A program made the translations under genes and the position numbers. 64,000 nt of DNA, from positions 144,934 to 208,933 of IMG/VR virus record IMGVR_UViG_3300027573_000779. The stretch is one strand, 5' to 3'. This DNA comes from a virus. Below the pieces are notes generated by a model. That model was not told the origin of the DNA, did not search any database, and saw nothing but the letters and a program-made list of their open reading frames with translations. Shown here one piece after another: positions 21,925 through 56,632 of the stretch (the first letter of the stretch is position 1; each line of letters opens with the position of its first letter).

Positions 21925-22131
21925 TTAAGACCCATTATCAAGGTAACTTATCAAAACATCATTCTGTGCTTGGTCCTTTACTTGGTCCCAAATTGAGTCA
22001 TGAATTGGCCAAATTACGTTCCGAACTTGGTTCTCAACTTGGTCTGGAGTCTGGCCTTTAATTTGGCTTCTCATATGCCACATTTGGCTTCTGACGTGCT
22101 GTTGCCAAATTTGAACCTTTAAAGCATCCAT
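21925..22131 (-). CDS. WDQ family protein
   Basis: A 68-residue protein with MRSQIKGQTPDQVENQVRNV and HDSIWDQVKDQAQND, clear degenerate WDQ units. AAAGGG lies just before ATG, and it follows the membrane micro-protein at 22137 closely. It is the most isolated clear WDQ copy on the left side of the family's range. Confidence 0.7.
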   Translation of the reverse strand: MDALKVQIWQQHVRSQMWHMRSQIKGQTPDQVENQVRNVIWPIHDSIWDQVKDQAQNDVLISYLDNGS

Positions 22132-22136
22132 TCCCT

Positions 22137-22286
22137 TTAATTAATACTATCAATTAGCTTACCAAGAACAGAATTTTTATATCCACTCTCCGTTGCATCC
22201 ATTACGAGACAGACCAACGGAAAAATTGTAATTGTACACACAATCAGCAAAAAAAGGATAATTATTGCTCTGGCAAAAACTCTCAT
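22137..22286 (-). CDS. Small membrane protein, 49 aa
   Basis: ATG 22286 begins one nt after the stop of the gene at 22288. The product has a basic start (MRVFARA), a TM helix (IIILFLLIVCTITIFPLVCL) and a polar tail, so it is probably a single-pass membrane protein. Between a conserved cytosolic gene and a WDQ gene. Confidence 0.55.
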   Translation of the reverse strand: MRVFARAIIILFLLIVCTITIFPLVCLVMDATESGYKNSVLGKLIDSIN

Positions 22287-22287
22287 A

Positions 22288-22503
22288 TTAATCTTTTGTG
22301 TTTATGTTTTCTTCTAAACCCTTAACTATACATTCTGCCCATCGTGCGCCGAACCTCTTGTCATCAAGCTCCTTATCAATTTCCTTTAGAAAGGACTGAA
22401 TGTCTCTGCCTAAACCATCAGGGTAGCCGTCGCCATGCCTATAGACAATGGCTCCAGTTGAATCGTCGCTGTAACAGAAATGAATTGTAGCTCTAGTTGA
22501 CAT
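22288..22503 (-). CDS. Conserved small protein 'MSTRATIHFC' type, 71 aa
   Basis: L-promoter TTGACG/16/TATAAT ends 6 nt before ATG, a near-consensus example. The text STRATIHFCYSDDSTGAIVY followed by RHGDGYPDGLG is a widespread small mobile-element family. Function unknown to me. Confidence 0.7.
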   Translation of the reverse strand: MSTRATIHFCYSDDSTGAIVYRHGDGYPDGLGRDIQSFLKEIDKELDDKRFGARWAECIVKGLEENINTKD

Positions 22504-22533
22504 ATTTGGATTATACGATATCTTTTTAAAACG

Positions 22534-22740
22534 TCAAGCGCCCGTTAATGGTTCAAACGTCCTATCTTTAGGCCAACGGGCTAACCTATGGTCGTTAGCG
22601 TATTTTAGCCAAGCTTCTGCTTTTTCTTTATCCTTCCAAATATTCAAGGCAATCTGGCGCATTTCTAGGGCAGTTTGTTCCTCTTGATAATGCCACATAT
22701 CCCTATCATCTGAGGACTTAATGTCACGCCAAGAAATCAT
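22534..22740 (-). CDS. Small helical protein, 68 aa
   Basis: ATG directly after a canonical GCC/GGC element (AAGCCCTGCGGCGTTTGAGC, then ATATG). Helical, Trp-rich (ALNIWKDKEKAEAWLKYAND). Ends Thr-Gly-Ala with GGGCGCTTGA leading straight into the next L-promoter's TTGACG. Confidence 0.6.
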   Translation of the reverse strand: MISWRDIKSSDDRDMWHYQEEQTALEMRQIALNIWKDKEKAEAWLKYANDHRLARWPKDRTFEPLTGA

Positions 22741-22761
22741 ATGCTCAAACGCCGCAGGGCT

Positions 22762-23001
22762 TTAGCTTTTCGTTTTTATAGGTTTCGCGCTTAGCCAGAG
22801 AGTTTGAACTTTCTTTGATTTGGGAAACAACTTATCTAAAATATTTTCTGCTTCTTTAATGTGATGTTCAAGCGCCGCCTTTGATTGTTCTTTATACTGG
22901 TCACTGGACTGAACGAAACTTTTATATAGCTGGACAATCATATCCAATCTACAGTTAGCGTTCTCAGTTTCGCGAATAAAATCTAAAGCGTTTGTCTTCA
23001 T
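22762..23001 (-). CDS. Helical protein, 79 aa
   Basis: ATG after a GCC/GGC element variant (AACCCTGCGACACTTGAGAG, then TATG). Helical (QYKEQSKAALEHHIKEAENI). Second cistron between the genes at 23023 and 22534. Confidence 0.55.
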   Translation of the reverse strand: MKTNALDFIRETENANCRLDMIVQLYKSFVQSSDQYKEQSKAALEHHIKEAENILDKLFPKSKKVQTLWLSAKPIKTKS

Positions 23002-25594: not shown

Positions 25595-25781
25595 TCAATG
25601 CTCCAAAGCCGCAGGGCTTTTTAATATGAATTGAATATCTGTTGTAATTTGGTCCGCAATTGGGTCCCCAATTTTAACCAACTGTTCGGTCCCAAATGTG
25701 ATTTTCAACTTGTTCTTGAACTTGGTCCCTAATTTCGTACCTAACTTGGTCTTCAAGTGTATCCCAAACTTTCTTCCCTAT
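25595..25781 (-). pseudogene. Broken WDQ family copy
   Basis: A frame with VWDTLEDQVRYEIRDQVQEQ and HIWDRTVG is open from about 25781 but has no start codon; after a GCC/GGC element the expected ATG position reads ATAAAT. It stops at 25674, and a shifted frame continues with KIGDPIADQITTDIQFI to TGA 25595. Two lesions (lost start, frameshift) make this a dead copy. Confidence 0.6.
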
Positions 25782-26923: not shown

Positions 26924-27148
26924 CTAAGTGTTAAAGTTTTTATCGTCTTCGGCTTCTTTCTGAGACTGGTTCCGAATTTGACTCCCGATTTGTTCCCAAA
27001 TTTGTTCTCCAATCTGATTCTTGAAGTGTTTCCAAGTATATAGCCAAATATGATTCCCGGTTTGTTCCAATACTTGGTTATTAATGCTATCAGATACTTG
27101 CGATATCTGCTCCCAAACCGGCTCTTTTTTAAAGACAATAATATCCAT
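26924..27148 (-). CDS. WDQ family protein
   Basis: Start probably ATG 27148, which overlaps the upstream protease-like gene end by 20 nt; earlier in-frame ATGs at 27166, 27190 and 27217 exist. C-terminal half has FKNQIGEQIWEQIGSQIRNQ, near-regular WDQ units with Gln and Ile. Operon partner of the genes at 26689 and 26363. Confidence 0.65.
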   Translation of the reverse strand: MDIIVFKKEPVWEQISQVSDSINNQVLEQTGNHIWLYTWKHFKNQIGEQIWEQIGSQIRNQSQKEAEDDKNFNT

Positions 27149-27518
27149 AAACACATCTGCTGCCATTTCGGGTGCAATCATGATTGTCATAAACAACCCC
27201 GTCAATAACAGCAACAAAATGTTTACTAACTTGACAAATTAGCTTACCTTTGGGTAGTTCATTAGCTCTCAAGTGAACTTTACAGCCTTGACCAATAAAC
27301 ATAGTTGGCACCCAAGTCCAACCCAAACTCTTTAAATAGGCTCTCAATACTGACCTTTTTACCCCTCCCTGATAGCCCTTTTTTGGCCGCAAAGCGTCAT
27401 AAATCTCCTGATAAGGTTTACCAGTGACAATCGAAACAGCCCTAACAGAACAGTCACCCGTTTTGCCTTTGTAACCAGCATCAACTCTTCCTCCGTCTGT
27501 CAAAACAACATTGTTCAT
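27129..27518 (-). CDS. Papain-like cysteine protease family protein
   Basis: A 129-residue protein with TGDCSVRAVSIVTGKPYQEI near the N-terminus and VSKHFVAVIDGVVYDNHDC later, giving a Cys...His...Asp/Asn order seen in a widespread phage/plasmid family that I read as papain-like. Conserved PTMFIGQGCKVHLRANELP lies between. Start set to ATG 27518, 6 nt after L-promoter TTGATT/16/TATTAT. Substrate unknown; it heads a four-gene unit that includes a WDQ gene and two further small genes. Confidence 0.75.
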   Translation of the reverse strand: MNNVVLTDGGRVDAGYKGKTGDCSVRAVSIVTGKPYQEIYDALRPKKGYQGGVKRSVLRAYLKSLGWTWVPTMFIGQGCKVHLRANELPKGKLICQVSKHFVAVIDGVVYDNHDCTRNGSRCVYGYYCL

Positions 27519-32502: not shown

Positions 32503-32751
32503 TCAAAATGAGTTTTTGGTAGTTACAAAAACTTGTTCCATAATTTGGAGTCGAACCTGTTCTTGGGTTTGTTCCCAACCTCTTTCTAATTGGTCCCAAA
32601 CTTGGTTTCCAACTTGGTTTCCAATTTGATTGCTAAAGTGATACCTAATTTGATTTAGAATTGTTAAATATTTTTTATCCATTTCACAAACAGGTCTAAG
32701 ACAAAAACCATACCGAATGCTAAAACTAATATTAATATAATGTACATTCAT
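32503..32751 (-). CDS. WDQ family protein
   Basis: ATG 32751 in a TGA-overlap with the WDQ gene at 32748. The middle reads IGNQVGNQVWDQLERGWEQT then EQVRLQIMEQV. Its N-terminal 20 residues are more hydrophobic than in other copies. Tandem duplicate with its neighbour, but well diverged. Confidence 0.7.
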   Translation of the reverse strand: MNVHYINISFSIRYGFCLRPVCEMDKKYLTILNQIRYHFSNQIGNQVGNQVWDQLERGWEQTQEQVRLQIMEQVFVTTKNSF

Positions 32752-32963
32752 TCAACTAAACTGTTGATTTGGTGCTCAATTTGGTAGCCAATTTCTGCCC
32801 ACATTTGGTTTTGAGTTTGGTCCCAAACTTTGTTTTCTATGGTTTGATGCCCAATTTGCTTAGAAATTTGAAGTCTTATTAAGTCCAAAGTATCTGTTAA
32901 GACTTGGCACTGAAACCGGTACTGGTCCCTAATTTGGTCTTTTGTTTTAAATCTCTTCAACAC
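32748..32963 (-). CDS. WDQ family protein
   Basis: Overlaps the upstream gene end by 17 nt. KDQIRDQYRFQCQ at the start, then SKQIGHQTIENKVWDQTQNQ and GYQIEHQIN. Coupled by TGA/ATG overlap to a second WDQ gene (32503). Confidence 0.7.
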   Translation of the reverse strand: MLKRFKTKDQIRDQYRFQCQVLTDTLDLIRLQISKQIGHQTIENKVWDQTQNQMWAEIGYQIEHQINSLVE

Positions 32964-33833: not shown

Positions 33834-34028
33834 TTAAAAATCAAGTCGATTGCTCAAGCCGCTCCTAAAAATTTCACTTACAATTTGGTCCCAAATTTGC
33901 CCCTTAACTTGGTTCCAAGTTTGTCCTCCAATTTGGCTCCCAACTTGTTTCCAAACTTGCTCCCAGACTTGGTCCCCAACTTGGCTCCAAACTTGGTCTA
34001 TAATCCTTTCTTTAATTATTTGGGTCAT
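33834..34028 (-). CDS. WDQ family protein
   Basis: A 64-residue protein, mostly regular units: VWSQVGDQVWEQVWKQVGSQ, then IGGQTWNQVKGQIWDQIVSE. Starts with MTQIIKERI, like the MT(R/K/Q)-type openings of several other copies. Its plus-strand shadow is also open in all frames because the unit is 12 nt. Confidence 0.8.
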   Translation of the reverse strand: MTQIIKERIIDQVWSQVGDQVWEQVWKQVGSQIGGQTWNQVKGQIWDQIVSEIFRSGLSNRLDF

Positions 34029-34034: not shown

Positions 34035-34259
34035 TTAAATTTGGTCCCAAATTGCGTCCTCAAGTTGTTTCCGAAGGTTGTCCCAAAGTTGTTCCCTAAG
34101 TGGATTCCAAACTTGTATAACCTGCATCCAAATTGGGTCCCAAACCTGTTCATCAAGCTGACTTTTAACTTGGTCCCCAACTTGGTCCCAAATAATCTTA
34201 CGAATCTCAATATCGGTTTGGTACCAATCCTCCGATAATTTGTCTAGCATCATTTTCAT
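34035..34259 (-). CDS. WDQ family protein
   Basis: Units include IIWDQVGDQVKSQLDEQVWD, IWMQVIQVWNPLREQLWDNL and a terminal AIWDQI. A promoter (TTGATT/16/TAAATG) overlaps the first codons. Followed 6 nt later by another WDQ gene. Confidence 0.75.
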   Translation of the reverse strand: MKMMLDKLSEDWYQTDIEIRKIIWDQVGDQVKSQLDEQVWDPIWMQVIQVWNPLREQLWDNLRKQLEDAIWDQI

Positions 34260-34297: not shown

Positions 34298-34591
34298 CTA
34301 AGGAATTCTTGGTGGCAGTGGTAAAACAATTCCTAATTTAGTAAGGGCTTGTTCATCTGTATTGTTCAACCCGTTATAAATCACTTTTGTAGCTATATAA
34401 AGACACTCGGCTTGTGTCCAATCTGGAAACCTTTTCTCTAAAGAATCACAAAATCTATCCCTTAATTCTTCAACAGGTATGGGATTAGATTTAGAAACAA
34501 ATGTAAAAGCAATTTTGAAAACCACGTCTGCTAAAATTTCAGAATTATCACTTAAATCTTTTAAAATTTTTGGTGAAATTTTCATAACCAT
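34298..34591 (-). CDS. Hypothetical helical protein, 97 aa
   Basis: Overlaps the upstream WDQ gene end by 10 nt. VEELRDRFCDSLEKRFPDWT and YIATKVIYNGLNNTDEQALT suggest a small helical bundle with no motif. It is flanked by WDQ genes on both sides. Confidence 0.55.
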   Translation of the reverse strand: MVMKISPKILKDLSDNSEILADVVFKIAFTFVSKSNPIPVEELRDRFCDSLEKRFPDWTQAECLYIATKVIYNGLNNTDEQALTKLGIVLPLPPRIP

Positions 34592-34797
34592 ATTTGCTCA
34601 AGAACTTGGTTCCGAACTTCCATGAAAACGTCATTCCTTATTTGTTCCCTAGATGGGTTTCCAACATGCTTCATAACTTGGCTCCCAATCTCAGTTCGGT
34701 CCCCAACTTGGTCCATAACGTGGTCCCAAACTTGGTCCATAACGCGGTCCCAAACTTGGTCCACAACTTGATACTGAATTTTGGTGACTAAGCTCAA
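34582..34797 (-). CDS. WDQ family protein
   Basis: TTG start immediately after the stop of the 34798 gene. QYQVVDQVWDRVMDQVWDHV is followed by MDQVGDRTEIGSQVMKHVGN. A clear two-unit array and then degenerate copies. The overlapping downstream gene is not a WDQ gene, so expression may be coupled. Confidence 0.75.
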   Translation of the reverse strand: MSLVTKIQYQVVDQVWDRVMDQVWDHVMDQVGDRTEIGSQVMKHVGNPSREQIRNDVFMEVRNQVLEQIWL

Positions 34798-37018: not shown

Positions 37019-37243
37019 TTATTTTTGGTCCCAAACTTGGTCCTCAACTTGGTCCCAAACTTGGCCCTGAACTTGGTCCCAAACTTGGTCCCGAACTTGG
37101 TCCCGAACTTGGTCCCGAACTTGGTCCCGAACTTGGTCCCGAACTTGGTCCCAAACTTGGTCCCAAACTTGGTCCCAAACTTGGTCCCGAACTTGGTCCC
37201 GAACTTGGTCCCAAACTTGGTCCTCAACTTGACCCTCAATCAT
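37019..37243 (-). CDS. WDQ family protein, longest regular array
   Basis: A 74-residue protein made almost entirely of four-residue DQV(W/R) units: after [14 protein letters not shown] come about 16 units that differ mainly by W, R, Q or E in one position, ending VWDQK. At DNA level this is a 12-bp tandem repeat with no stop in any frame. Amphipathic helix periodicity of 4 residues. The copy just upstream (37240-37382) is frameshifted and shares its ATGA junction. Confidence 0.85.
37025..37237. repeat. 12-bp minisatellite inside WDQ gene
   Basis: About 17 tandem copies of a 12-bp unit, on plus AACTTGGTCCCA with single-base variants (C/G at one position, CCC/CTC at another). Because the unit is a multiple of 3, gain or loss keeps the frame, so length variation is expected between isolates. 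Confidence 0.85.
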
Positions 37244-37382
37244 AAAGATTTAGTTTTTAATTCCTCAACTTGCCAATAAACTTGGTCTTTAATTTGTTAC
37301 CATTAACTTGGTTCCAAACTTGGTCCCCAACTTGGTTCCGAACTTGGCCCCAAACTTGGCCCCAAACTTGGTCCGCGTTCAT
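37240..37382 (-). pseudogene. Frameshifted WDQ family gene
   Basis: ATG 37382 opens NADQVWGQVWGQVRNQVGDQ, VWNQV and then runs out of frame to TAA 37257. An overlapping frame carries [17 protein letters not shown] to TGA 37240, which overlaps the next WDQ gene's ATG as ATGA. The lost junction shows the frame was once continuous. Repetitive DNA explains the slippage. Confidence 0.6.
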
Positions 37383-37385
37383 AAA

Positions 37386-37412
37386 AGAAGGGTAGCCCCG
37401 CAAGGCTACCCC
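37386..37412 (-). terminator. Rho-independent terminator, minus strand
   Basis: On minus, GGGTAGCC-TTGCGG-GGCTACCC followed by TTCTTTT closes the DUF932 gene and separates it from the broken WDQ gene. Confidence 0.75.
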
Positions 37413-38913: not shown

Positions 38914-39102
38914 CTAGTTTATTTTTAGGTCTCTAACTTGGTCCCAAATTTGTCCCACAACTTGGCTTCTAAATTGGTCCTGTATTTGGCTTTGGCCCCA
39001 AATTTGTTTCTTGGTTTCATGCCCAACTTGGTCCCAAATTTCGCTCCAAATTTGGTCCCAAACTTGGTCCCGAACTTGTCTTTTTATTAAATTACTATTC
39101 AT
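38914..39102 (-). CDS. WDQ family protein
   Basis: [20 protein letters not shown] then HETKKQIWGQSQIQDQF. Overlaps the upstream zinc gene by 8 nt and ends before a GCC/GGC element. Regular N-terminal array with degenerate end. Confidence 0.75.
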   Translation of the reverse strand: MNSNLIKRQVRDQVWDQIWSEIWDQVGHETKKQIWGQSQIQDQFRSQVVGQIWDQVRDLKIN

Positions 39103-39395: not shown

Positions 39396-39602
39396 CTAGT
39401 TTATTTTTATGTTCCAAATGTGTTCCACAACTTGGCCTTCTACTTCTTCCCCAACTTCTTCCCAAACTTGGCCCCAAACTTGTTCAAAAACCTGTTCCCA
39501 AACTTGACCTTCTACTTGGTCCCAAATTTGTTCCCCAATATGGTTATGAACTTGGCTCCTAATTTGGTCATCAATTTGCTTCCTAATGTTATCTTTCGTC
39601 AT
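39396..39602 (-). CDS. WDQ family protein
   Basis: Opens MTKDNIRKQIDDQIRSQVHN, then HIGEQIWDQVEGQVWEQVFE and QVWGQVWEEVGEEVEGQVVE. One of the most repetitive copies. Ends before tandem GCC/GGC elements. Shares the MT-K/R-D/N-opening with 39894, 40142, 40344 and 40558. Confidence 0.8.
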   Translation of the reverse strand: MTKDNIRKQIDDQIRSQVHNHIGEQIWDQVEGQVWEQVFEQVWGQVWEEVGEEVEGQVVEHIWNIKIN

Positions 39603-39893: not shown

Positions 39894-40127
39894 TTAAAAC
39901 GCCGAGGGGCTAAGCGCCATAGGGGGTTCTGTGTTCCAAGCTTGGTGCCAAATTTGGTTTTCTACTTGGCTCCCAATCTGTTCCCAAACTTGGTCCCAAA
40001 TCTGTTCCCAAACTTGGCCCCAAACTTGGCCTTCTATTTGGTTCCAAATTTGGTCCCCAATATGGTGGTCCCCAATATGGTCCCTAACTTGGTCCATAAC
40101 TTGGTTCTGAATGTTGTCTCTTGTCAT
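39894..40127 (-). CDS. WDQ family protein
   Basis: MTRDNIQNQVMDQVRDHIGD, then IWNQIEGQVWGQVWEQIWDQ and VWEQIGSQVENQIWHQAWN. First of four tandem WDQ genes (39894-40764) running down to the RlaP-like gene. Nearly perfect units in the middle. Confidence 0.8.
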   Translation of the reverse strand: MTRDNIQNQVMDQVRDHIGDHHIGDQIWNQIEGQVWGQVWEQIWDQVWEQIGSQVENQIWHQAWNTEPPMALSPSAF

Positions 40128-40141: not shown

Positions 40142-40351
40142 CTAGGTTTCACTAAAACATTTATTTGAAATTTGTATCATAACTTCATGCCGTAATTGGT
40201 TCCAGTGTTCCTGACCTTGGTAAACTTGGTCCCCAACTTGGTTCCAAACTGCTTGGTTCCCAACTAGGTTTTGAATACTCTTAAAAGTTTGCCCCAAAAC
40301 GCCATTATATAACTGATGATGTAACTGATTCTCAATCTTATTTCTAGTCAT
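40142..40351 (-). CDS. WDQ family protein, degenerate
   Basis: MTRNKIENQLHHQLYNGVLG at the start, then LVGNQAVWNQVGDQVYQGQE. Units partly lost. Overlaps the next WDQ gene by 8 nt. Keeps the shared MT-R/K opening. Confidence 0.65.
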   Translation of the reverse strand: MTRNKIENQLHHQLYNGVLGQTFKSIQNLVGNQAVWNQVGDQVYQGQEHWNQLRHEVMIQISNKCFSET

Positions 40352-40553
40352 GTGTCTCTAAAACTTGGTCCCCAACTTGGGTCCTAACTTGGTTCCGAAT
40401 TTCTTCTAAAGATGGATGTAAAAAACGTCGCCCCCAAAGTAACGGGTGCGAAGTCGGGTCTTGGATTTGATTATAAATTTGCTTCAAAATTTGGTCCCAA
40501 GTTTGGCCCCAAACTTTTGCGAACACCTGACTCTTAATCTCATCTTTGGTCAT
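40344..40553 (-). CDS. WDQ family protein
   Basis: Start set to ATG 40553 (MTKDEIKSQVFAKVWGQTWD), since the shared MT-K-D-x-I opening matches the neighbours; the longer frame lacks it. Later EIRNQVRTQVGDQVLE. Insert-like middle (PTSHPLLWGRRFLHPSLE) breaks the repeat. Confidence 0.7.
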   Translation of the reverse strand: MTKDEIKSQVFAKVWGQTWDQILKQIYNQIQDPTSHPLLWGRRFLHPSLEEIRNQVRTQVGDQVLETHD

Positions 40554-40557
40554 GTTT

Positions 40558-40764
40558 TTAGTAAATTTTGCTGCACCGAAAAACTTGGTACAAAATTTCA
40601 TTTTTAATTTCATACCTTATTTGTGGGTCCCAATAATCCTGAATTTGGTTATGAACCTGCTTGCTAATTTGGTTGCCAGCTTGGTTGAACAACGGTCTTA
40701 CAACAAGTTCCGAAGTTTGACCCCGAACAAAAGCATCCTGATTCTCAATCTTATCTTGGGTCAT
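40558..40764 (-). CDS. WDQ family protein, degenerate
   Basis: MTQDKIENQDAFVRGQTSEL then NQAGNQISKQVHNQIQDYWD. Overlaps the end of the RlaP-like gene by 14 nt. Last copy of the four-gene tandem run. Confidence 0.65.
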   Translation of the reverse strand: MTQDKIENQDAFVRGQTSELVVRPLFNQAGNQISKQVHNQIQDYWDPQIRYEIKNEILYQVFRCSKIY

Positions 40765-42738: not shown

Positions 42739-42747
42739 TCTTTCTTC

Positions 42748-42984: not shown

Positions 42985-43208
42985 ACATTAATAAAAACAA
43001 TTTCTAAAAGCGTTTCTTTCACAATCCCGCTACGCAAATCAGATTGCGGCCAAAACATTGCATCCATTTGACTTCTAAAACGGTTGTTAACTTGCGCACT
43101 AATTTTGTCAAGAATAAACCATTCAGTTTTTTGAATTTCTACTCCGACGCTGTTGTGAACGCTGTTTTCTACTTTATTAAGCCGCACTGACAAATCGTCC
43201 ATTTTCAT
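42981..43208 (-). CDS. Small protein, possible diverged WDQ relative, 75 aa
   Basis: Begins inside the rIIB 3' end (32-nt overlap). RLNKVENSVHNSVGVEIQ then FILDKISAQVNNRFRSQMDA with MFWPQSDLRSGI, a weak echo of WDQ spacing. Assignment tentative. Confidence 0.5.
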   Translation of the reverse strand: MKMDDLSVRLNKVENSVHNSVGVEIQKTEWFILDKISAQVNNRFRSQMDAMFWPQSDLRSGIVKETLLEIVFINV

Positions 43209-44082
43209 CGCGCTTATTGTAATAAGTCACCTTAACCTTACCAAGCTTGTTTTTTTCGCTTGCAAACCTGCCAAAGGAGTCGCGCTTAGGGTTGAAAGCT
43301 TTAAGCCTGTTCCCTGTCACTTTACCAGAATACAGCCTTTCTGTCAAGATGTTGCCATTTTCCCATTTTCCAACCACCGAAACAGGAAGATATCTCCAAG
43401 CTCTGCCTTTGGACTTATTTAAATCTTGCGGGATTGCAACAACATCCATTGGATTAACTTTGACAACAACAACTTTAGTTTTGTTGTTTATAATACCCCC
43501 ATAATAAGGCAAATAGGAATAAGAACAAAAATGTAGCCCATTTGAACAAAGCCTGATTCTGCTTGGGTCTACTTCATTGGGGTCCATTTTGACAATCTTG
43601 CCAATAGCATGTTTCAAATGAGTGCCATCAGGAGACTTGTTATAGGAAGTCATGTCTTCTCTCAGCATCTTATAAGCAAGAAAACACCCGTCATCAGTAA
43701 TAGGCATCTCTCCATTTTCAAGAAAATCGTACAGTTCGTTTCGTGCATCTTCTGAAGGATTTTTATAGAGATTAGCCAAAAACCTCACATAAGGTTCATA
43801 AGGGAAACCTCCTTGGACAAACTGTAAAATGCGCTTAACCAAGGTCCCATGAATTTCCTGTCCGTCATAATAAATCGCGCCGCTGTGGACTTTCACTTTG
43901 CCGTAGCTATGCTTTAGGATAGCGCCGGGAAGGTCCATTGCTTCAATCAGCTTCTTGTAATTCTTCTGTCTGTAAAACTCAAGAGCCTTTTGCCAATTTG
44001 GGTGGGTTGAATTGATGGAGTGCCGTTTACCATCTACCACCACAACCAGCACGTTGCCGTTAAAAATTGCTGAAACGTTCAT
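43177..44082 (-). CDS. rIIB: rIIB-like protein
   Basis: A 301-residue protein with the rIIB text DDGCFLAYKMLREDMTSYNK, then HAIGKIVKMDPNEVDPSRIR, LCSNGLHFCSYSYLPYYGG and VVVVKVNPMDVVAIPQDLNK, plus C-terminal RDSFGRF and RDENGRF repeats (GRFx nuclear-basic motifs as in other phage rIIB-like proteins). L-promoter TTGACA/16/TACAAT ends 7 nt before ATG. rIIB works with rIIA at the membrane in T4 and counters RexAB exclusion; here its exact role is not known. Confidence 0.9.
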   Translation of the reverse strand: MNVSAIFNGNVLVVVVDGKRHSINSTHPNWQKALEFYRQKNYKKLIEAMDLPGAILKHSYGKVKVHSGAIYYDGQEIHGTLVKRILQFVQGGFPYEPYVRFLANLYKNPSEDARNELYDFLENGEMPITDDGCFLAYKMLREDMTSYNKSPDGTHLKHAIGKIVKMDPNEVDPSRIRLCSNGLHFCSYSYLPYYGGIINNKTKVVVVKVNPMDVVAIPQDLNKSKGRAWRYLPVSVVGKWENGNILTERLYSGKVTGNRLKAFNPKRDSFGRFASEKNKLGKVKVTYYNKRDENGRFVSAA

Positions 44083-44164
44083 ATTTTTAATTGTATTAAA
44101 AATTTTTAAAATGTCAATGCTCCAAAGCCGCAGGGCTTAACCTTTTTTTAAAACGCCGGAGGGG

Positions 44165-44347
44165 CTAAAAAATGTCAAAAGTTTGGTCCCAAATACGGTC
44201 CAAAACTTGGTCTGCAACTTCATCTCTAAATTCACTAATGTCCCAAATTATAAGCGCAATCTGGCCCTTCACACTCCCCTCAACTTGGTCCGCTATTTGT
44301 CTTACGAGTGTGTCTTTAATTTTTTGGACCTTGTTATTTACTCTCAT
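44165..44347 (-). CDS. WDQ family protein, degenerate
   Basis: TLVRQIADQVEGSVKGQIAL and VADQVLDRIWDQTFDIF. 60 residues. Lies between rIIA and rIIB and overlaps the other inserted WDQ gene by 14 nt. Confidence 0.65.
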   Translation of the reverse strand: MRVNNKVQKIKDTLVRQIADQVEGSVKGQIALIIWDISEFRDEVADQVLDRIWDQTFDIF

Positions 44348-44564
44348 AAAAAATCTGGTTCCAATGGTTTAGAAGGTATTCCCAAATTGGGTCTGCAACA
44401 TCCTCAATCGTAAGTGCAATACTGTCTCTTTGGTCCCAAATCAGGTCTCTTACTGACTGCCCAACGTGGCTTACAATTTGGTCAACAAGGTGGTCGTCAG
44501 ATTCATGAATTCGATTTCTAATTTGATAAAGAGTTTCGCTCTCAATTTTGGTTAAATATATCAT
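44334..44564 (-). CDS. WDQ family protein, degenerate
   Basis: HLVDQIVSHVGQSVRDLIWD then DVADPIWEYLLNHWNQIF. ATGA overlap with the rIIA stop. Units less regular than in the array genes. Confidence 0.65.
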   Translation of the reverse strand: MIYLTKIESETLYQIRNRIHESDDHLVDQIVSHVGQSVRDLIWDQRDSIALTIEDVADPIWEYLLNHWNQIFYESK

Positions 44565-47466: not shown

Positions 47467-47778
47467 TCAGTCCGCCACTTTCCGAACCATTTCTTGGAAG
47501 TAATCGTACTCCCGAACCCTGCCCACTTCCCACAACCCCTTATCAAGAGTGATAGGGGCGTGCTCTTCATGGACAACGGTCGCTGACTTTTCCAGAGAGA
47601 GAAGAATTCTCTCGCCTTCCTGAATCAGTTCAAACTCGTCCTCTGCTTCGAGAATGTGACTGTGACCAGACTCGCCATGTGCTACCACATAATGTCTTAG
47701 TTTTGTGACCTTGGCTTCCTTGGAAGGAGGTTGGGTCACCCTTTTGAACAGAACGTCGCCTTGTTGTGCGGTTTTCAT
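47467..47778 (-). CDS. Conserved phage hypothetical protein, 103 aa
   Basis: Contains VVHEEHAPITLDKGLWEVGR and VREYDYFQEMVRKVAD, a family seen in many phages ('THEEH.PI.L..G.Y.V..QREYDYF'). Promoter TTGACT/16/TATAAT is 13 nt upstream of ATG. Role unknown. Confidence 0.65.
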   Translation of the reverse strand: MKTAQQGDVLFKRVTQPPSKEAKVTKLRHYVVAHGESGHSHILEAEDEFELIQEGERILLSLEKSATVVHEEHAPITLDKGLWEVGRVREYDYFQEMVRKVAD

Positions 47779-47821: not shown

Positions 47822-48841
47822 CTAGGTTAATTTCTCTGCATTCGTAAACCAATTACTGTTGCGCCATTTAAGGGCCGCTTCAATCGTGCTACATTCAGGG
47901 GCTACGCCCTCCAAATGCCACACTCCAACTGAAGGATTAAGCATCTTAAGATATTTGGCGTTTGGAACAACGTCTGATAAATTGACACTAAGAAGCTCAT
48001 AGTTGCCAAGCTTTTCCAAAACCTTATGACTTAAGCTTACCAACATGCGCTCAATTCCAATTTTGCGAATTAGCTCTCTCCGCTTGTCCACATTGGTTTC
48101 TTTTAAAACTTCTTTGGGATTGAGTTTTTCCGCAGGAGTTAAAACCTGTTTTGGGGACATAGCTATTCCATTCAGGAAATAAAGCTTCCAACCATCAGAA
48201 TATTCAACCGCTGGAGCTTCATCTTTGTGAAGTCGCCCTTCGCTATTGCGCCAAATTTGGGTTGGCTTGCTGGTAACAATGAGGCAGCTATCAGTAGGGT
48301 AAAAAAGGCCCAAATCCGCGCAAGCTTCAAGCTTATCGTAGTTTTTCATAACTTCAGCGTCAAATTTAACTCCAATCATCTTGTAGGCGCTTACCCACCC
48401 AAAATAATTGGAATAAAAATGACCATCAAAGTAGGGCCAGACAAAAAGCTTAATGGTATTTTTGAGCTTTGTAATAAGGTCCTCTTCTGAAAGAGGATTT
48501 TTGGACTTGAAAGTTATTTGGCTATTAATCTGTTCCCAAGTTGTTTCAAACAAGCCCCGCAAATTCTTATTTATCTCACTAAAACTGGGGCGCTTTGGAT
48601 TCCAGTTTTCATAGCCCCCCTCACTCAAAAGGCAAAAGGCAATCCAACCGCCAAAAGGACTAGAAACATGAATGACGGGGTTTTTCTTGCCCAAAATTTG
48701 CTCGCTCCATTCGCCTCCTAGCCTTTGTGCTTCGCTGGTTGGAACTTGGCGACAGTCAAGCGCCCTGTCCCGCCAGTAATTCTTGATTTCCTCAAGTTTT
48801 TTGACTTGTTCGTCAGTTAGTTTTTCGATTTTATCTGCCAT
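47822..48841 (-). CDS. DUF6745 family protein
   Basis: A 339-residue protein with the DUF6745 order: an N-terminal helical part with VPTSEAQR, a middle with GLFETTWEQINSQITFKSKN and YFDGHFYSNYFGWVSAYK, and a C-terminal part SEGRLHKDEAPAVEYSDGWK. As I recall, DUF6745 relatives often carry WDQVRDQV-like repeats in the segment that here reads TTWEQINSQI. This links the WDQ mini-proteins to a known domain family. Promoter TTGACA/16/TACCAT is 32 nt before ATG. Confidence 0.7.
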   Translation of the reverse strand: MADKIEKLTDEQVKKLEEIKNYWRDRALDCRQVPTSEAQRLGGEWSEQILGKKNPVIHVSSPFGGWIAFCLLSEGGYENWNPKRPSFSEINKNLRGLFETTWEQINSQITFKSKNPLSEEDLITKLKNTIKLFVWPYFDGHFYSNYFGWVSAYKMIGVKFDAEVMKNYDKLEACADLGLFYPTDSCLIVTSKPTQIWRNSEGRLHKDEAPAVEYSDGWKLYFLNGIAMSPKQVLTPAEKLNPKEVLKETNVDKRRELIRKIGIERMLVSLSHKVLEKLGNYELLSVNLSDVVPNAKYLKMLNPSVGVWHLEGVAPECSTIEAALKWRNSNWFTNAEKLT

Positions 48842-48897: not shown

Positions 48898-49092
48898 TCA
48901 ACAGTTTAGAAATTTTGAGCTTTCGTCCCAAATTTGTTCTGAAATTTGTTCCCAAGCGTCTTCAAGTCGAAAAAACTTCTCGTTCGCTATAATTTGGCTC
49001 CGAATTTGGAGATGAACTTGGTTATAAATTTCTCCTCCAATCAAACTCCGAAGTTCTATAATTTTAGTCGTCATCTGGTTCAAACGGTTCAT
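48898..49092 (-). CDS. WDQ family protein
   Basis: ATG after a GCC/GGC element variant. GGEIYNQVHLQIRSQIIANE then RLEDAWEQISEQIWDESS. Part of a three-copy run (48898-49463) upstream of DUF6745. Confidence 0.7.
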   Translation of the reverse strand: MNRLNQMTTKIIELRSLIGGEIYNQVHLQIRSQIIANEKFFRLEDAWEQISEQIWDESSKFLNC

Positions 49093-49111: not shown

Positions 49112-49297
49112 CTATGTTGTTTTTGTGTTCATAACCGCAACTTGTTCCAAAATTGGGTTCCAAATTTGGTCCCTAAATTGGTCCCGCATTGGAGTCCAAA
49201 CTTGGTACCTAAATTGGTTCTTAATTTGGTCCCCAACTTGGTTATTAATTTTATCCCAAATTTGGTCCCCCATAATCTGAATTTTAGTATTAGCCAT
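49112..49297 (-). CDS. WDQ family protein
   Basis: MANTKIQIMGDQIWDKINNQ then VGDQIKNQFRYQVWTPMRDQ and FRDQIWNPILEQV. The DNA upstream of its ATG (TTAGTAAAGAAACCAGA, 2 nt, TATG) matches the end of the 49460 gene upstream of the next WDQ gene, evidence of a tandem duplication. Confidence 0.75.
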   Translation of the reverse strand: MANTKIQIMGDQIWDKINNQVGDQIKNQFRYQVWTPMRDQFRDQIWNPILEQVAVMNTKTT

Positions 49298-49313: not shown

Positions 49314-49463
49314 CTAAGGGCTTAGTGTCTCCCTAAAAACTTGGTTCCAAAGCTGGTCCTCAATTTGGTGCTTGATTCGGTTTTCTATTGTGTCAATAAC
49401 TTTCCCAACTTGGTCCCAAACTTGGCTCCTAGCTTGATTCCAAAAAGCATGAGATATAATCAT
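49314..49463 (-). CDS. WDQ family protein, short
   Basis: Start set to ATG 49463 in an ATGA overlap with the 49460 gene end. Opens MIISHAFWNQARSQVWDQVG, then TIENRIKHQIEDQLWNQVF. 49 residues. Duplicated junction with the neighbour at 49297. Confidence 0.7.
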   Translation of the reverse strand: MIISHAFWNQARSQVWDQVGKVIDTIENRIKHQIEDQLWNQVFRETLSP

Positions 49464-50467
49464 AGTTCTGGTTTCTTTACTAAAGTCATGCGCCGCCATA
49501 TTAATTTGCGCAGTTTTCCTTCAGGACCATGGGGTTGATGGACGAGGCTTTTTCTTCGCCAATGCATCCGTGGAGAAGCGTGATGTCCCCCTAGACTTGG
49601 TGACTCGTGTTCAATCTTATAACCATATCCAACAATATTAGGAGACCAAAGCGCTTCTTTTTTAATTTCTCCCGTCTTAGCCTTTTTCTCGGGTCTTTCT
49701 AAAGATGCTGGCTTAATAAGTTTTGGACTGGTCCCCCAAACCATTAAAGTAAGGATTGTGGCTTGAACGGCCTTAATTAGGATTTTCTGTTCTTCTTCAG
49801 ATGAAGGAGATGGGGATTTGTCGTTTTTAATTTTTTCATATAGTTTTGGTTGGTAGAGTTCATACATTAATTCTTGAACCTTTGTCACATCTTCCCACCT
49901 ACCTTCTTTTTCAGTTAGACCAACAGTACTAATTGGCATATTAGTTGGATACCACGCGGCATAATTAACAAAACGCCCGCTATCCATTAAAAAAGGTAAA
50001 TGAAAACACAAAGTTCCCACATTTACTTCTTGTCCCAAAACAAAATCTCCTTTATCTACAAGTGAAACGCCAATAAAGGGAAATCGCCAGCCTAAATAAG
50101 ATTCAACAAATTGTGTTGGAAACACTAATATAAAATGTTTTAAAGGCAGATAAACTTCGCTAAAACTAAAATCTTGAGGAGGGACAGTCGCCACACATTC
50201 CAACAGAAATTCATGGTCAATAAAATAAGTCGGAACCTGAGTGTCTATCAAATTGTTGGTAACCGTTTTAATTACTTGGTCTGTGTCTCCTTGCAAAGAA
50301 TAAAACCATGAATTAATAATGCCTAAAACAAGACTGTAATATTTTGGGTCATAATACCCATTAGGGCAGACAATTCGTTTCGGGTAAAACAAACTAATTC
50401 TTTCTTGCGCCTTTTCGCAAAGTTCTTTGAAATGGTCCCACTCGTTTTCAAAAATTTCAATCTTCAT
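49460..50467 (-). CDS. Conserved mobile-element hypothetical protein, 335 aa
   Basis: L-promoter TTGCAT/16/TAAAAT ends 6 nt before ATG. C-terminus GGHHASPRMHWRRKSLVHQP then PEGKLRKLIWRRMTLVKKPE matches a common phage/plasmid family ending 'H.SPR.H.RR.H.R....G...W..P..V'. The upstream 250 residues are not assigned; CVATVPPQDFSFSEVYLPLK may be a beta core. Not identified further. Confidence 0.65.
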   Translation of the reverse strand: MKIEIFENEWDHFKELCEKAQERISLFYPKRIVCPNGYYDPKYYSLVLGIINSWFYSLQGDTDQVIKTVTNNLIDTQVPTYFIDHEFLLECVATVPPQDFSFSEVYLPLKHFILVFPTQFVESYLGWRFPFIGVSLVDKGDFVLGQEVNVGTLCFHLPFLMDSGRFVNYAAWYPTNMPISTVGLTEKEGRWEDVTKVQELMYELYQPKLYEKIKNDKSPSPSSEEEQKILIKAVQATILTLMVWGTSPKLIKPASLERPEKKAKTGEIKKEALWSPNIVGYGYKIEHESPSLGGHHASPRMHWRRKSLVHQPHGPEGKLRKLIWRRMTLVKKPEL

Positions 50468-50504: not shown

Positions 50505-51143
50505 TTATTTTTGCTTCAAAATGAAGCTTAACCACTCTACCCTTGGGACAGTTGAAATTTCGCTTGCCGCAGTCCTAGGTAAAGGTTTTTTAGGCTCATA
50601 AAGAAGTCTGTGTCTGAAATTTTCGATAGGCATATTCCCTCTTTCACTGTTTAAGTCCCTATGGGCCAAAACAATATTGGTCCACTCGTCCTTTCCACCA
50701 TGGGATTTGGGTTTAACGTGTTCTAAAGAAGCTTCAGCTAAAGTTAAGATTTTACCACTATAAGCACATTTCTTGCCATAATGACGATAAGCGTTACGTT
50801 TGTTTAGTTTTAACTCCCTGAGGGCTAGACCGTTATAGTTTTTTGCCCTCATCACAATCGGCGCTCTAATAGTTCTTTTAGAGGTATGAATTGGAATGTC
50901 CCATGAACGAACCGGTAAATTCATCCAAGCTTCTAAATTAACTGGTTCCCAATAGCTAACTTTATCGAAATTCGGTCTGCCATCATCATCTAATTCAAAT
51001 TCAATATCAATCCCTTGAGAGGCCATATTGCCATCTTCTGAAGTAGAAAAAAGATTGGTAAGAGCCTTCTTTATTGTCGCGGTGCCTACAACAATATAAA
51101 GACTATTAAGAACAAGAACAAGCTGTTCATTTAAAAGGTTCAC
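50505..51143 (-). CDS. HNH endonuclease
   Basis: A 212-residue protein with the HNH core KCAYSGKILTLAEASLEHVK followed by PKSHGGKDEWTNIVLAHRDL (His142, Asn156, His161). The N-terminal half is a separate domain of unknown type. HNH nucleases in phages cut DNA at packaging or act as homing or anti-host enzymes. Overlaps the next small gene by 17 nt. Confidence 0.85.
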   Translation of the reverse strand: MNLLNEQLVLVLNSLYIVVGTATIKKALTNLFSTSEDGNMASQGIDIEFELDDDGRPNFDKVSYWEPVNLEAWMNLPVRSWDIPIHTSKRTIRAPIVMRAKNYNGLALRELKLNKRNAYRHYGKKCAYSGKILTLAEASLEHVKPKSHGGKDEWTNIVLAHRDLNSERGNMPIENFRHRLLYEPKKPLPRTAASEISTVPRVEWLSFILKQK

Positions 51144-51336
51144 TAAAAAGAATTGTGTCGTTAACTGACCAAAGTAAAGGACTTATATCATTACCGAAAC
51201 CAACTTTTCTTACAATATCACCCCAATCAGAAACTAAAAATGACTGATAAATCTGCGTATCAATTTTTCTTCTTACTACTTTTATCTGGCTATACGGATG
51301 ATTCCAAACTCGGTCGCGAAATATGTTTCTATTCAT
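51127..51336 (-). CDS. Small paralogue family B member, 69 aa
   Basis: Start set to ATG 51336, just after the upstream stop. FRDRVWNHPYSQIKVVRRKI then DTQIYQSFLVSDWGDIVRKV and LLWSVNDTILFSEPFK. Aligns with the 51344 and 51560 genes: HPNxQI, R-x-x-I-x-TQI, W-x-x-I and a final 'LLW..ND.I...E.F'. Looks like a WDQ-derived family that kept I/Q spacing. Confidence 0.6.
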   Translation of the reverse strand: MNRNIFRDRVWNHPYSQIKVVRRKIDTQIYQSFLVSDWGDIVRKVGFGNDISPLLWSVNDTILFSEPFK

Positions 51337-51343
51337 CGTAAAT

Positions 51344-51556
51344 TTATTCAAAAAATTCATTCAAATAAATTGCATCGTTAAGCCTCCAACTTAAAAGAGT
51401 TAAATTGTGCCCAAGATAGGTTCTTATTTCAATGTCGTGCCAAACAGAAGTTGATAATGACTTTAAAATTTGTGTATGAATTTCTTCTCTGATTCTTTGT
51501 ATCTGTATATTCGGATGAACCAAAGTTTGGTTTAAAACCGTGTCTATGTTGTTCAT
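51344..51556 (-). CDS. Small paralogue family B member, 70 aa
   Basis: LVHPNIQIQRIREEIHTQIL then SVWHDIEIRTYLGHNLTLLS and WRLNDAIYLNEFFE. Tandem paralogue of 51127 and 51560. Confidence 0.6.
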   Translation of the reverse strand: MNNIDTVLNQTLVHPNIQIQRIREEIHTQILKSLSTSVWHDIEIRTYLGHNLTLLSWRLNDAIYLNEFFE

Positions 51557-51559
51557 TGT

Positions 51560-51766
51560 CTATTCAAAAACTTTACTAAATACAATTCCCTCCTCAATAG
51601 CCCAAACTAGACGATGATAAGAAAAAGGAATGGTCTTTTTGATTTCTAAACATAAATTTGAGTGAATCTCTGAGTTTTGTTGCACAAGAATTTTGTTTGT
51701 TGCCAGTTTTTCTATCTGGCTATTCGGATGAGTCCAAACTTGGTTCCAAATTATGTTTGTTTCCAT
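51560..51766 (-). CDS. Small paralogue family B member, 68 aa
   Basis: Start set to ATG 51766, overlapping the upstream gene end by 47 nt in a different frame; the longer frame is not supported. IIWNQVWTHPNSQIEKLATN then LVWAIEEGIVFSKVFE. The NQVW at the start is a direct WDQ unit, tying family B to WDQ. Confidence 0.55.
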   Translation of the reverse strand: METNIIWNQVWTHPNSQIEKLATNKILVQQNSEIHSNLCLEIKKTIPFSYHRLVWAIEEGIVFSKVFE

Positions 51767-51974
51767 TATCGTAATCAACTTTATCTTTGATAACCTTGGT
51801 GCCAAAAAGCGCCCCTAAGAAAACACTTAAATTTGTAGGAATTTCAGCTAATTCTCCATTTTTAAGTGAAACAATACCCCAAACAACAAAAAAAAGAAGA
51901 AAAGCAACCGTATTTGCTGTGTTAATAACACAAAACGCTCCGTCTTGCTGTTCACATAACTCCGCTATTCTCAC
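51720..51974 (-). CDS. Membrane protein, 84 aa
   Basis: Two hydrophobic stretches (TANTVAFLLFFVVWGIVSL and TNLSVFLGALFGTKVI) suggest two TM helices, followed by an acidic/basic tail. Form is like small phage membrane proteins, possibly holin-like, but this is only form. Overlaps both neighbours. Confidence 0.55.
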   Translation of the reverse strand: MRIAELCEQQDGAFCVINTANTVAFLLFFVVWGIVSLKNGELAEIPTNLSVFLGALFGTKVIKDKVDYDNGNKHNLEPSLDSSE

Positions 51975-54707: not shown

Positions 54708-54751
54708 TTTCCCATTGTATTAAAACTTTTTAAAAAAACAAGCAAAAAAAT

Positions 54752-54955
54752 TTAGCCAAAATAGCCGTTTTTGCAGATGAATTCATACATTTTTTCATCA
54801 GCGCCGCACTCCAGTTCAAAACAAAAAAAGAAGGTCCTCGCAAGCCTTTTGTGATAGGCATCAATCCAAGTCAGATTTGCCTTTTCCCAAGCTTTCCCTC
54901 GAAAATCAAACTCTGGATGCTTTTGAACGGTTTCTCGTGAAACATGAATATTCAC
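54752..54955 (-). CDS. Small Cys-containing protein, 67 aa
   Basis: KAWEKANLTWIDAYHKRLAR then CFELECGADEKMYEFICKNG. Starts directly after the stop of the 54956 gene. Function unknown. Confidence 0.55.
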   Translation of the reverse strand: MNIHVSRETVQKHPEFDFRGKAWEKANLTWIDAYHKRLARTFFFCFELECGADEKMYEFICKNGYFG

Positions 54956-55210
54956 TTAAATTCTGTCCACATTCAAATAAATTGCGATTGATGTTTGTTT
55001 TAGGACATCGCTTAAACTGTCAGACGCAAACTGCTCTCTTAGTTCGGGCGGAATAAAACCTATTTCACTTTCTATAGGCCAAATTGTTCTCCCAACTTTA
55101 GTAAGAATTTCTTGCGATATAGTTATATGTAATTTATTAGCAATTGGGAGCCGAATGTTTTCGCGTATTAAATTATAAACCTGTTGATTGAGTTCAGACA
55201 TTAAATTCAT
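54956..55210 (-). CDS. Small helical B-like protein, 84 aa
   Basis: ATGA overlap with the SprT-like gene. LNQQVYNLIRENIRLPIANK then EILTKVGRTIWPIESEIGF and SDVLKQTSIAIYLNVDRI, the pattern seen in family B. Function unknown. Confidence 0.5.
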   Translation of the reverse strand: MNLMSELNQQVYNLIRENIRLPIANKLHITISQEILTKVGRTIWPIESEIGFIPPELREQFASDSLSDVLKQTSIAIYLNVDRI

Positions 55211-55461
55211 TTAGCAATCTTTCTATAATTTTGCTGCCAAATAGCTTTTGTTATATAAGAGGAGGCTTTTCTTACTTGTCCTTCTTCCATTTCTGGAAAG
55301 CAAGCATGAAGAAGTTCATGAATAAGGGTATTTAAGTAATTTTTAGACAACTGGCGAGGGTCAATTTCAATAAGTTTGTTATCGGGCCAAAACTGACCCC
55401 AAGCTCTTTCGCGTCCAAGCTTTCTCTCTACTATAGGGACTCTTTTTCTGCGCCGCTTCAC
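55207..55461 (-). CDS. SprT-like metalloprotease-type mini-protein
   Basis: GTG start at 55461. 84 residues with HELLH (48-52) in LNTLIHELLHACFPEMEEGQ, a zincin active-site motif of SprT type, followed by a basic tail. Its first 83 nt overlap the phosphoesterase 3' end out of frame, unusually long here. SprT-like proteins act on DNA-protein crosslinks or are structural; this one is minimal. Confidence 0.7.
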   Translation of the reverse strand: MKRRRKRVPIVERKLGRERAWGQFWPDNKLIEIDPRQLSKNYLNTLIHELLHACFPEMEEGQVRKASSYITKAIWQQNYRKIAK

Positions 55462-56017
55462 ACATAGTTTTACACCTATTTAGATACCTGTCAACTGTTT
55501 GTAACCTTACCGAATCTGAAGTAATTATACCAACCATTGGAAGGCCAGTAAACGAGCCGGTATTTAAACAAACTATACTATTTATCTTTTCTAACGTAGC
55601 CTGATGATTGTGTCCAACTATAACTACTTGATAATCATTATCTTGCGCAAATTTAACAGCGTTCCTCTTAAGTCCAACCTTAGAGAACCAAGAACAAAAT
55701 TGATGACCATGAATAACACACACATTAAAACCATTATTATTCCAGTGATAACTTGGTAATAAATAGTCTTTTAAATAATCTTCGACTCCAGAAAACGCCT
55801 CATGATTGCCAGAAATCAAAATAGCTTTTCCTTTTTGTGCTAAAAATTTTATCTTTTCTAAAAGAGATTTATCATAAGAGGTCATGCGCCCTTTATAATC
55901 TACAATATCTCCATTGACAATTAATTTATCAAAAGAGGAATTTAAAACGCCGCTTATTGCAGACCTGTCACACCATCGATTCCCAAGATGTAAATCAGAT
56001 ATTATTAGCGTTTTCAA
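55379..56017 (-). CDS. Calcineurin-like metallophosphoesterase
   Basis: A 212-residue protein with the phosphoesterase motifs DLHLGNR (Asp8, His10), NGDIVD, SGNHEAFSG, VIHGHQF and VGHNHQATLE, giving a full two-metal site. TTG start overlaps the stop of a 19-codon ORF upstream. Substrate not predictable; phage versions act on DNA/RNA ends or on nucleotides, and in context RNA-end repair is possible. Overlaps SprT-like gene by 83 nt. Confidence 0.85.
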   Translation of the reverse strand: MKTLIISDLHLGNRWCDRSAISGVLNSSFDKLIVNGDIVDYKGRMTSYDKSLLEKIKFLAQKGKAILISGNHEAFSGVEDYLKDYLLPSYHWNNNGFNVCVIHGHQFCSWFSKVGLKRNAVKFAQDNDYQVVIVGHNHQATLEKINSIVCLNTGSFTGLPMVGIITSDSVRLQTVDRYLNRCKTMCEAAQKKSPYSREKAWTRKSLGSVLAR

Positions 56018-56073
56018 ACTTCTTCCAAGTCTCTTCCATTAATAGCCAACTCATGTAGCACAATTTCTTTCAT
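56014..56073 (-). CDS. 19-residue micro-ORF coupling two genes
   Basis: ATG 56073 is in an ATGA overlap with the gene at 56070, and its TGA (56014-56016) overlaps the TTG start of the phosphoesterase (TTGA). The peptide MKEIVLHELAINGRDLEEV has no motif. The double overlap suggests a translation relay or a real micro-protein. Confidence 0.5.
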   Translation of the reverse strand: MKEIVLHELAINGRDLEEV

Positions 56074-56423
56074 ACCTTTTCAACTAATTTTCTTTCCTGT
56101 CTTTGAATTTTTCGCCGGTTCCTTAAAAGCGCTTTCTTCTCTTTCTTGTTTCTGGCCTTTTCCAGAAATTCGGCCTGCGCCTTCCTTCTAATAGCCATCC
56201 TGAACACATCGAAAACTGATATATGATATCTTTGTTGAGTATGCAAAGGTCTAAACTCTATCAAGTCACCCGATTTTAGGCTAACCACTAGAGGTTTATC
56301 TTTGTCTTTGCCAAAAGTGCCGTCCAAAACACCTTTTGTAACCAAAGAAACAACCTTTTCTTTGTGACTAACAATATTATTATCTTTATCCTTAATAGGA
56401 ACTAGATAGCCAAAACGCCTCAT
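56070..56423 (-). CDS. Basic protein with C-terminal coiled coil, 117 aa
   Basis: Beta-rich N-terminus (RRFGYLVPIKDKDNNIVSHK; VVSLKSGDLIEFRPLHTQQR) and a very basic tail (KARNKKEKKALLRNRRKIQR). The tail suggests RNA or DNA binding. Overlaps the WDQ gene start by 4 nt and the micro-ORF by 4 nt. Confidence 0.6.
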   Translation of the reverse strand: MRRFGYLVPIKDKDNNIVSHKEKVVSLVTKGVLDGTFGKDKDKPLVVSLKSGDLIEFRPLHTQQRYHISVFDVFRMAIRRKAQAEFLEKARNKKEKKALLRNRRKIQRQERKLVEKV

Positions 56424-56632
56424 AAAATACTAGTCTCAATTTGGGCTTCAACTTGGGTCCGAATTTGGCTCAAAAGCCGGTTTCCAGAATACTGAGTTCC
56501 CCAAACTTCTCCTCGAACTTGTCCCTGAACTTGGTTGAAAACTTGACTCACAATCTCATTCTTAACCTTGCCAAGAATTCGCTCAAAAGTGCTGTCCCAA
56601 ATTTGGTTTGGAGATTTTAGGTCATCGGACAT
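56420..56632 (-). CDS. WDQ family protein
   Basis: SPNQIWDSTFERILGKVKNE then IVSQVFNQVQGQVRGEVWGT and LLSQIRTQVEAQIETSIL. Last WDQ copy going rightwards; the promoter region beyond it is shared with a plus gene. Confidence 0.7.
   Translation of the reverse strand: MSDDLKSPNQIWDSTFERILGKVKNEIVSQVFNQVQGQVRGEVWGTQYSGNRLLSQIRTQVEAQIETSIL

Follow-up and report, generated by a model that had tools for sequence, protein, structure and literature searches.

Repeats of four residues, two invariant and two variable, encoded by a unit of 12 nucleotides (nt), have been described in proteins of the related mycobacteriophages Tweety (gp54), Che8 (gp57) and PMC (gp51). Their third codon positions are invariant, the number of units is 48, 26 and 15, respectively, and selection for variation in these repeats was already proposed by the authors (PMC2884959). 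Here we consider the WDQ genes, a family of tiny genes built from a Trp-Asp-Gln-Val (WDQV) repeat, in the final 64 kb (the window: 64,000 nt, positions 144,934 to 208,933) of the 208,933-base virus record IMGVR_UViG_3300027573_000779, which is that of a large tailed phage. Our favoured explanation, to which we give about an even chance, is that these genes are free-standing, multiplied copies of a tetrapeptide arm found inside proteins of the DUF6745 family, acting in trans with a DUF6745 core that has no arm of its own.

How do the described systems compare with this locus? Tweety gp54 (L201, 1145-2269) has an AA[GWQ][SY] repeat with the same codon signature as the WDQV arrays, but the repeat lies inside one protein instead of forming a multi-gene family, and its ends differ by eye. 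As a candidate DUF6745 protein gp54 was rejected, a Pfam scan giving no match to any family. The bbp36 protein of Bordetella phage BPP-1 (variable region 2) is likewise a phage protein of the early region, and its repeat array varies in number; it differs in having a GTATAGYR octapeptide on a DUF7666 protein, and no DUF6745. DUF6745 itself is present in the Microcystis phage Ma-LMM01, where gp174 is a DUF6745 protein without a repeat arm beside gp175, a partner protein that we call P; the window likewise has a core with an adjacent P. The neighbouring gp173 was classed as a middle gene in a published transcriptome (PMC5780444). In the Mycobacterium prophage prophiGD102-1, gp38 is a DUF6745 protein with an xxQL arm, beside gp37, which is P. 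Most DUF6745 proteins carry a tetrapeptide arm internally, and most WDQV arrays outside the window are such arms; in the window and in a second lineage the core is arm-less and the WDQV arrays are separate genes. Literature searches found nothing relevant on the repeat motif WDQV, and none of the papers searched names DUF6745.

WDQ genes and the DUF6745 arm

The repeat was scored with a cyclic four-state profile, the tested gene being left out of training and shuffled 1000 times. The stretch from 21.9 to 56.6 kb holds 21 small minus-strand genes, of 48-97 amino acids (aa), with a period-4 unit x1-x2-Q-[VIL]. All 21 outscore 1000 of 1000 shuffles (z-scores 7.0-18.3), and the control, 23 unrelated small genes of the window, gives z -1.9 to 1.9. 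Tandem Repeats Finder independently reports 12-nt periods at many of the copies. The genes are as follows.

21925..22131, minus strand: WDQ gene, 68 aa, z 7.3
26924..27217, minus strand: WDQ gene in a 97-aa open reading frame (ORF), the repeat forming the 3' half, true start uncertain, z 16.7
32503..32751, minus strand: WDQ gene, 82 aa, overlapping 32748 by 4 nt, z 14.5
32748..32963, minus strand: WDQ gene, 71 aa, GTG start, z 9.5
33834..34028, minus strand: WDQ gene, 64 aa, z 9.6
34035..34259, minus strand: WDQ gene, 74 aa, z 9.4
34582..34797, minus strand: WDQ gene, 71 aa, TTG start, z 10.3
37019..37243, minus strand: near-perfect WDQ gene, 74 aa, 12-nt array of 17.2 copies with 91% matches
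37257..37403, minus strand: WDQ copy, short or truncated, on the upstream side of 37019, z 11.9
38914..39102, minus strand: WDQ gene, 62 aa, z 9.9
39396..39602, minus strand: WDQ gene, 68 aa, structure predicted, z 10.1
39894..40127, minus strand: WDQ gene, 77 aa, z 12.9
40142..40351, minus strand: WDQ gene, 69 aa, z 8.8
40344..40613, minus strand: WDQ gene, 89 aa, z 18.3
40558..40764, minus strand: WDQ gene, 68 aa, z 8.9
44165..44347, minus strand: WDQ gene, 60 aa, at the junction of the rIIA and rIIB homologues, z 7.0
44334..44564, minus strand: WDQ gene, 76 aa, overlapping the rIIA homologue by 4 nt, z 9.6
48898..49092, minus strand: diverged WDQ gene immediately upstream of DUF6745, z 8.0
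49112..49297, minus strand: WDQ gene, 61 aa, z 12.8
49314..49499, minus strand: WDQ gene, 61 aa, z 11.2
56420..56632, minus strand: WDQ gene, 70 aa, sharing 4 nt with the gene that ends at 56423, z 10.6

A stricter search with copy 37019 gave 18 matches in the whole record, all within the window. The sequence-only reading had listed 20 clear copies, every one of which is present on the minus strand; 37257-37403 is added here. That reading took the genes to be real and to encode a helical repeat, and in this it was right. It missed the match of the repeat to the internal arm of DUF6745, and that the window holds an arm-less DUF6745 and P:

47822..48841, minus strand: arm-less DUF6745 protein, 339 aa (Pfam PF20530, E=3.7e-14, 52.9 bits against a cut-off of 27; phrog_31813)
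47467..47778, minus strand: partner protein P, His-rich, 103 aa, separated by 43 nt from DUF6745 on its upstream side (phrog_27831, E=1e-8)

This is the only DUF6745 in the record. It lacks an xxQV array and has a short non-repeat insert in the arm position. In an alignment of 18 P sequences H39, H41 and H70 are invariant and H73 nearly so. A Pfam scan of the tiny WDQ proteins gave no PF20530 match. Sequence searches of the PDB returned nothing significant for DUF6745 and nothing for P, and a PDB fold search with DUF6745 gave no significant match; the best viral match is the DUF6745 protein of Ma-LMM01.

With copy 37019 as query, 250 viral stretches were retrieved, and the 80 best WDQV loci were analysed. 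In 66 of them there is a DUF6745 match in the locus, and in 9 more the contig edge cuts a protein whose start resembles DUF6745, so that 75 of the 80 have either a DUF6745 with an internal arm or a DUF6745 that lacks the repeat and has free WDQV genes nearby. In most of them the repeat is an arm inside DUF6745, flanked by a 75-aa N-terminal and a 205-230-aa C-terminal part, and its array length varies widely among the proteins. Half of these loci (40/80) have P next to DUF6745 and on its strand, and the surrounding genes are those of phage early replication, recombination and regulation (ERF, RecT, DnaB, YqaJ, RusA, repressors). A second search, with arm-less DUF6745 cores as query, gave 54 contigs, part of them already in the first set. 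Free WDQV genes, about 170 in all, occur in 36 of the 43 arm-less loci, a total from which six proteins of 348-433 aa with an arm or insert of another kind (L099, L174-L178) are left out; where DUF6745 has an internal xxQV arm, a free WDQV gene is present in 1 of 73 loci. The loci behind these counts are not all independent, several belonging to one phage, or to one contig sampled twice.

In a tree of the C-terminal domain (64 rows) the window DUF6745 groups with arm-bearing proteins (support 100/99), apart from the main arm-less clade. Forcing all arm-less rows into one clade is rejected by the approximately unbiased (AU) test (p-AU 1.5e-45), a rejection perhaps partly due to L174, L177 and L178, three rows nested in the arm-less clade with arms of other kinds. 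The placement of the window protein is itself supported, and therefore the arm has been lost from the core at least twice; free WDQV genes accompany both inferred losses. An evolutionary link between the free WDQ genes and the DUF6745 arm is well supported, and common descent of the two is likely.

Some arms and arrays depart from this pattern. WDQV arms occur in another, non-DUF6745 protein in L065 (9560-10369) and L036 (2-412), with a common C-terminal end LGEYDE. In L174-L178, L180, L190 and L191 the arm of DUF6745 is built on a different constant pair (xxAV, xxSV, SATx, AATx, xxQL, xSSL). In L043 (80 kb) and L066 (77 kb) the WDQV arrays reach 220 aa.

Predicted helix and diversification of the variable pair

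The sequence-only reading had proposed a protein-coding four-residue repeat that forms a helix, and structure prediction agrees. AlphaFold2 models copy 39396 as one helix over residues 3-67, with a mean predicted local distance difference test (pLDDT) score of 87.9 and a predicted template modelling (pTM) score of 0.39. When a full DUF6745 protein is modelled, confidence is high for the core and low for the arm, which takes the form of a long helix.

In most arrays the third codon positions are near-uniform within a locus and different between loci. Q and V are fixed, and x1 varies greatly (W, R, G among others), as does x2 (D, A, N, G among others). Over 99 de-duplicated arrays, the ratio of nonsynonymous (piN) to synonymous (piS) diversity at x1 and x2 has a median of 5.4, and exceeds 1 in 95 arrays and 2.5 in 76. 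Under neutrality, in a star-like simulation without recombination between units, the ratio had its median at 0.83-0.92 and its 95th percentile at 1.7-2.5. Selection for x1/x2 diversity is the simplest reading of the excess, because homogenisation by recombination erases silent and amino-acid differences alike; a position-specific mutation process may be an alternative source.

Turnover is also seen among close relatives. Five contigs that represent one phage (L144-L148) differ by 0-3 mismatches outside the WDQV genes, versus 9-55 mismatches plus indels inside them, and in L148 two WDQV genes are fused. In some strain pairs the indels are in multiples of 12. Could a diversity-generating retroelement be at work? 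That candidate was rejected: reverse transcriptase (PF00078) was absent from the record and from 8 other WDQV phage contigs, and the controls were detected.

TAL (transcription activator-like) effectors, which read DNA by means of 34-residue repeats, have a homogenised framework and a hypervariable residue pair in each repeat. The variable pair in a constant framework is alike in the WDQV arrays, where the unit has four residues and is predicted to be helical; the likeness is one of analogy only.

Coding evidence, diverged copies and neighbours

Are the tiny ORFs genes? The xxQV frame is the open frame in all 20 copies tested, and the other five frames hold 36-122 stops each in total, a result that is partly by construction since open ORFs were chosen. 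The copies are co-directional, and many overlap or nearly abut their neighbours, as 44334-44564 does the rIIA homologue. Among the window copies the Q position is conserved at the protein level (piN 0.27 vs piS 0.59), and x1 and x2 are diversified at the amino-acid level in other phages; both results speak against DNA-level elements free of selection on the protein frame, the finding named beforehand as fatal to the reading of these repeats as proteins.

The siting of WDQ genes at junctions of accessory genes, also claimed from the sequence, holds. A search with rIIA for close relatives of the window phage gave a single one, L099, at 38% identity, which retains the window's gene order of rIIA, rIIB, a 79-aa gene, an AAA-ATPase and a nucleotidyltransferase. 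The rIIA-rIIB junction is 22 nt and empty in L099, and holds two WDQ genes in the window; such WDQ copies are therefore lineage-specific additions at gene junctions. The whole L099 record (202,704 bases) has no WDQV match. It has other tiny genes, of about 55-65 aa, at gene junctions between 2875 and 21449, with a pattern MNSLKxxVRxDDSxDxxEY seen by eye; phmmer connects three pairs among them.

Beyond the 21 genes, the cyclic profile gives a signal in four more places.

25595..25756, minus strand: broken or diverged WDQ copy, z 4.9
51127..51805, minus strand: three mutually similar tiny genes (51127, 51344, 51560) with marginal WDQ signal, z 3.2-4.3
3014..3205, plus strand: possible diverged WDQ copy, z 5.1
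4476..4739, plus strand: possible diverged WDQ copy, z 7.0

The diverged or broken kin proposed earlier are thus upheld for 3014-3205, 4476-4739 and 25595 (z 4.9-7.0) and marginal for the trio at 51127, 51344 and 51560. For 42981, 53082, 54956 and the remaining plus-strand tiny genes the profile gives no WDQ signal clearly above chance, and the kinship claimed for 53082, 54956 and the other plus-strand genes is not confirmed. The supported number of WDQ copies in the window is about 21 to 24, in place of the roughly 30 first counted. Repeat matches to the Pfam families DUF4816, YpjP, EnY2 and pP_pnuc_2 are weak and were set aside as low-complexity chance, and PADLOC, run for known defence-system proteins, gave only weak matches in repeat regions. 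When phage records were searched with the repeat by tblastn, nothing matched, which the low-complexity filter probably explains.

Several neighbours may be recorded. A run of tiny genes lies at 2610-4739 (plus strand), with a WDQ-like signal kept in 3014 and 4476 and not clearly in the others, and the protein at 4761-6857 (plus strand) has by eye the look of a subtilisin-type serine protease; an 889-aa protein whose start is similar is found at the opposite end of the record (L011). An HNH endonuclease-like protein (50505-51143) adjoins the tiny genes at 51127-51805. An RNA ligase is found at 35133-36128 and a DUF932 protein at 37421-38425; the WDQV locus L053 also holds a DUF932 protein.

Alternative readings and meaning

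What might the free arms do? Decoys, oligomerising scaffolds and membrane or nucleic-acid binders had been named as possibilities from the sequence; none of the present results points to membrane or nucleic-acid binding. Computation supports the trans-arm explanation through the common xxQV unit, the near-exclusive genomic association with DUF6745, the either/or distribution and the repeated arm loss; further support comes from Q and V staying constant at the protein level as the other two residues diversify in most lineages, from in-frame turnover within one phage population and from the helix predictions. The mechanism we infer is that each small WDQ protein would be one long α-helix, with Q and V making a constant surface and x1 and x2 a variable one. 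The helix would stand in for the internal arm by docking, together with P, on the DUF6745 core that lacks one, and a single core could thereby be served by many interchangeable arms. The variable pair would decide the binding target; because the module sits in phage early regions, a protein of the host or of a defence system, or else the replication and recombination machinery, is the likeliest. Old copies would drift from the repeat, and may gain functions of their own.

A number of observations weigh against this explanation. WDQV genes are missing from the locus in 7 of the 43 arm-less cases, and from the entire record in L139, L157, L160 and L181; L043 and L066, contigs of 76-80 kb, have WDQV arrays and no DUF6745 in the record. 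All of these are possibly fragments. L043 and L066 caution that the DUF6745 partner might be dispensable. Because short repeats may also evolve by convergence, common descent of free genes and arms is likely and no more. In the full DUF6745 model the arm has a pLDDT of only 38-55. Taken together, the window copies show no excess at x1 and x2 (piN 0.53 vs piS 0.51) and are too diverged; copy 37019 alone has piN 0.112 and piS 0 between units, and the window copies are older than the arrays showing the excess. In five other near-identical contig pairs the WDQV genes are unchanged, in the pair L154/L155 one 12-nt gap is the sole WDQV change, and repeat arrays are prone to misassembly.

One might think instead of structural rulers or self-assembling scaffolds, in which the helices pack on one another or on the DUF6745 core into filaments or bundles while solvent-facing x1 and x2 drift freely. 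The single long helix predicted, and array lengths that differ so widely between DUF6745 proteins, would suit such a role, and the constant pairs of the other arms (AV, SV, QL, SAT, AAT, SSL) fit a need for helicity and spacing alone. Free drift, however, predicts piN close to piS, against the median ratio of 5.4, and the x1 alphabet of W, R and G recurs, with R encoded by AGG in some lineages and CGG in others; we consider scaffolds unlikely, if still a serious contender. That the arrays serve as a gene nursery seems to us improbable. Here 12-nt arrays would have spread to gene junctions, where their open frames diverge into unrelated small proteins, the DUF6745 link being merely ancestral. 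Such a course would account for the graded divergence from 37019 to 44334 and 48898, for the insertion at a junction empty in L099, and for L099 itself, which lacks WDQV matches and yet has other small groups of tiny paralogues, but it leaves unexplained both the x1/x2 diversification within the arrays of other phages and the either/or pattern of free genes and internal arms.

A selfish or neutral satellite DNA of 12-nt units, its open frames being incidental, might be suspected from the near-perfect array at 37019 and the indels in multiples of 12 between some strain pairs. It is very improbable given the start codons, the overlaps with neighbours, the constant frame and the kept Q position of the window copies (piN 0.27 vs piS 0.59), the use of different synonymous codons for one amino-acid unit by lineage, and the near-restriction to DUF6745. 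Finally, might the antisense frame, an NLVP repeat, be the selected product? Sense first positions are antisense third positions, so that x1 variation at position 1 is silent there. The common x2 change of D to A (GAC/GCC), however, reads V/G in antisense, arrays with R, D, H or Y at x1 disrupt the antisense proline, and the antisense frames hold 36-82 stops across copies; we reject this idea as scarcely credible.

Beyond the trans-arm explanation one can imagine, as a tentative and rather doubtful proposal, a phage tetrapeptide recognition code. Helical arrays would have a constant Q-V (or A-V, S-V or Q-L) frame and a positively diversified pair, and would be deployed as an internal DUF6745 arm. 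In at least two lineages they would instead form a set of interchangeable small proteins by which a single core is aimed anew, through in-frame recombination, as its host or defence target changes.

For phage biology, an apparent orphan repeat family becomes part of a widespread, undescribed phage module of DUF6745, P and a diversifying tetrapeptide arm. The diversification in many arrays, together with the near-clonal turnover, points to an ongoing arms race with a partner. The matter is testable, as the module is present in the cultured phages Ma-LMM01 and prophiGD102-1, and Tweety has an analogous repeat protein. The WDQ genes would also be an example of new small genes born from the arm of a larger protein.

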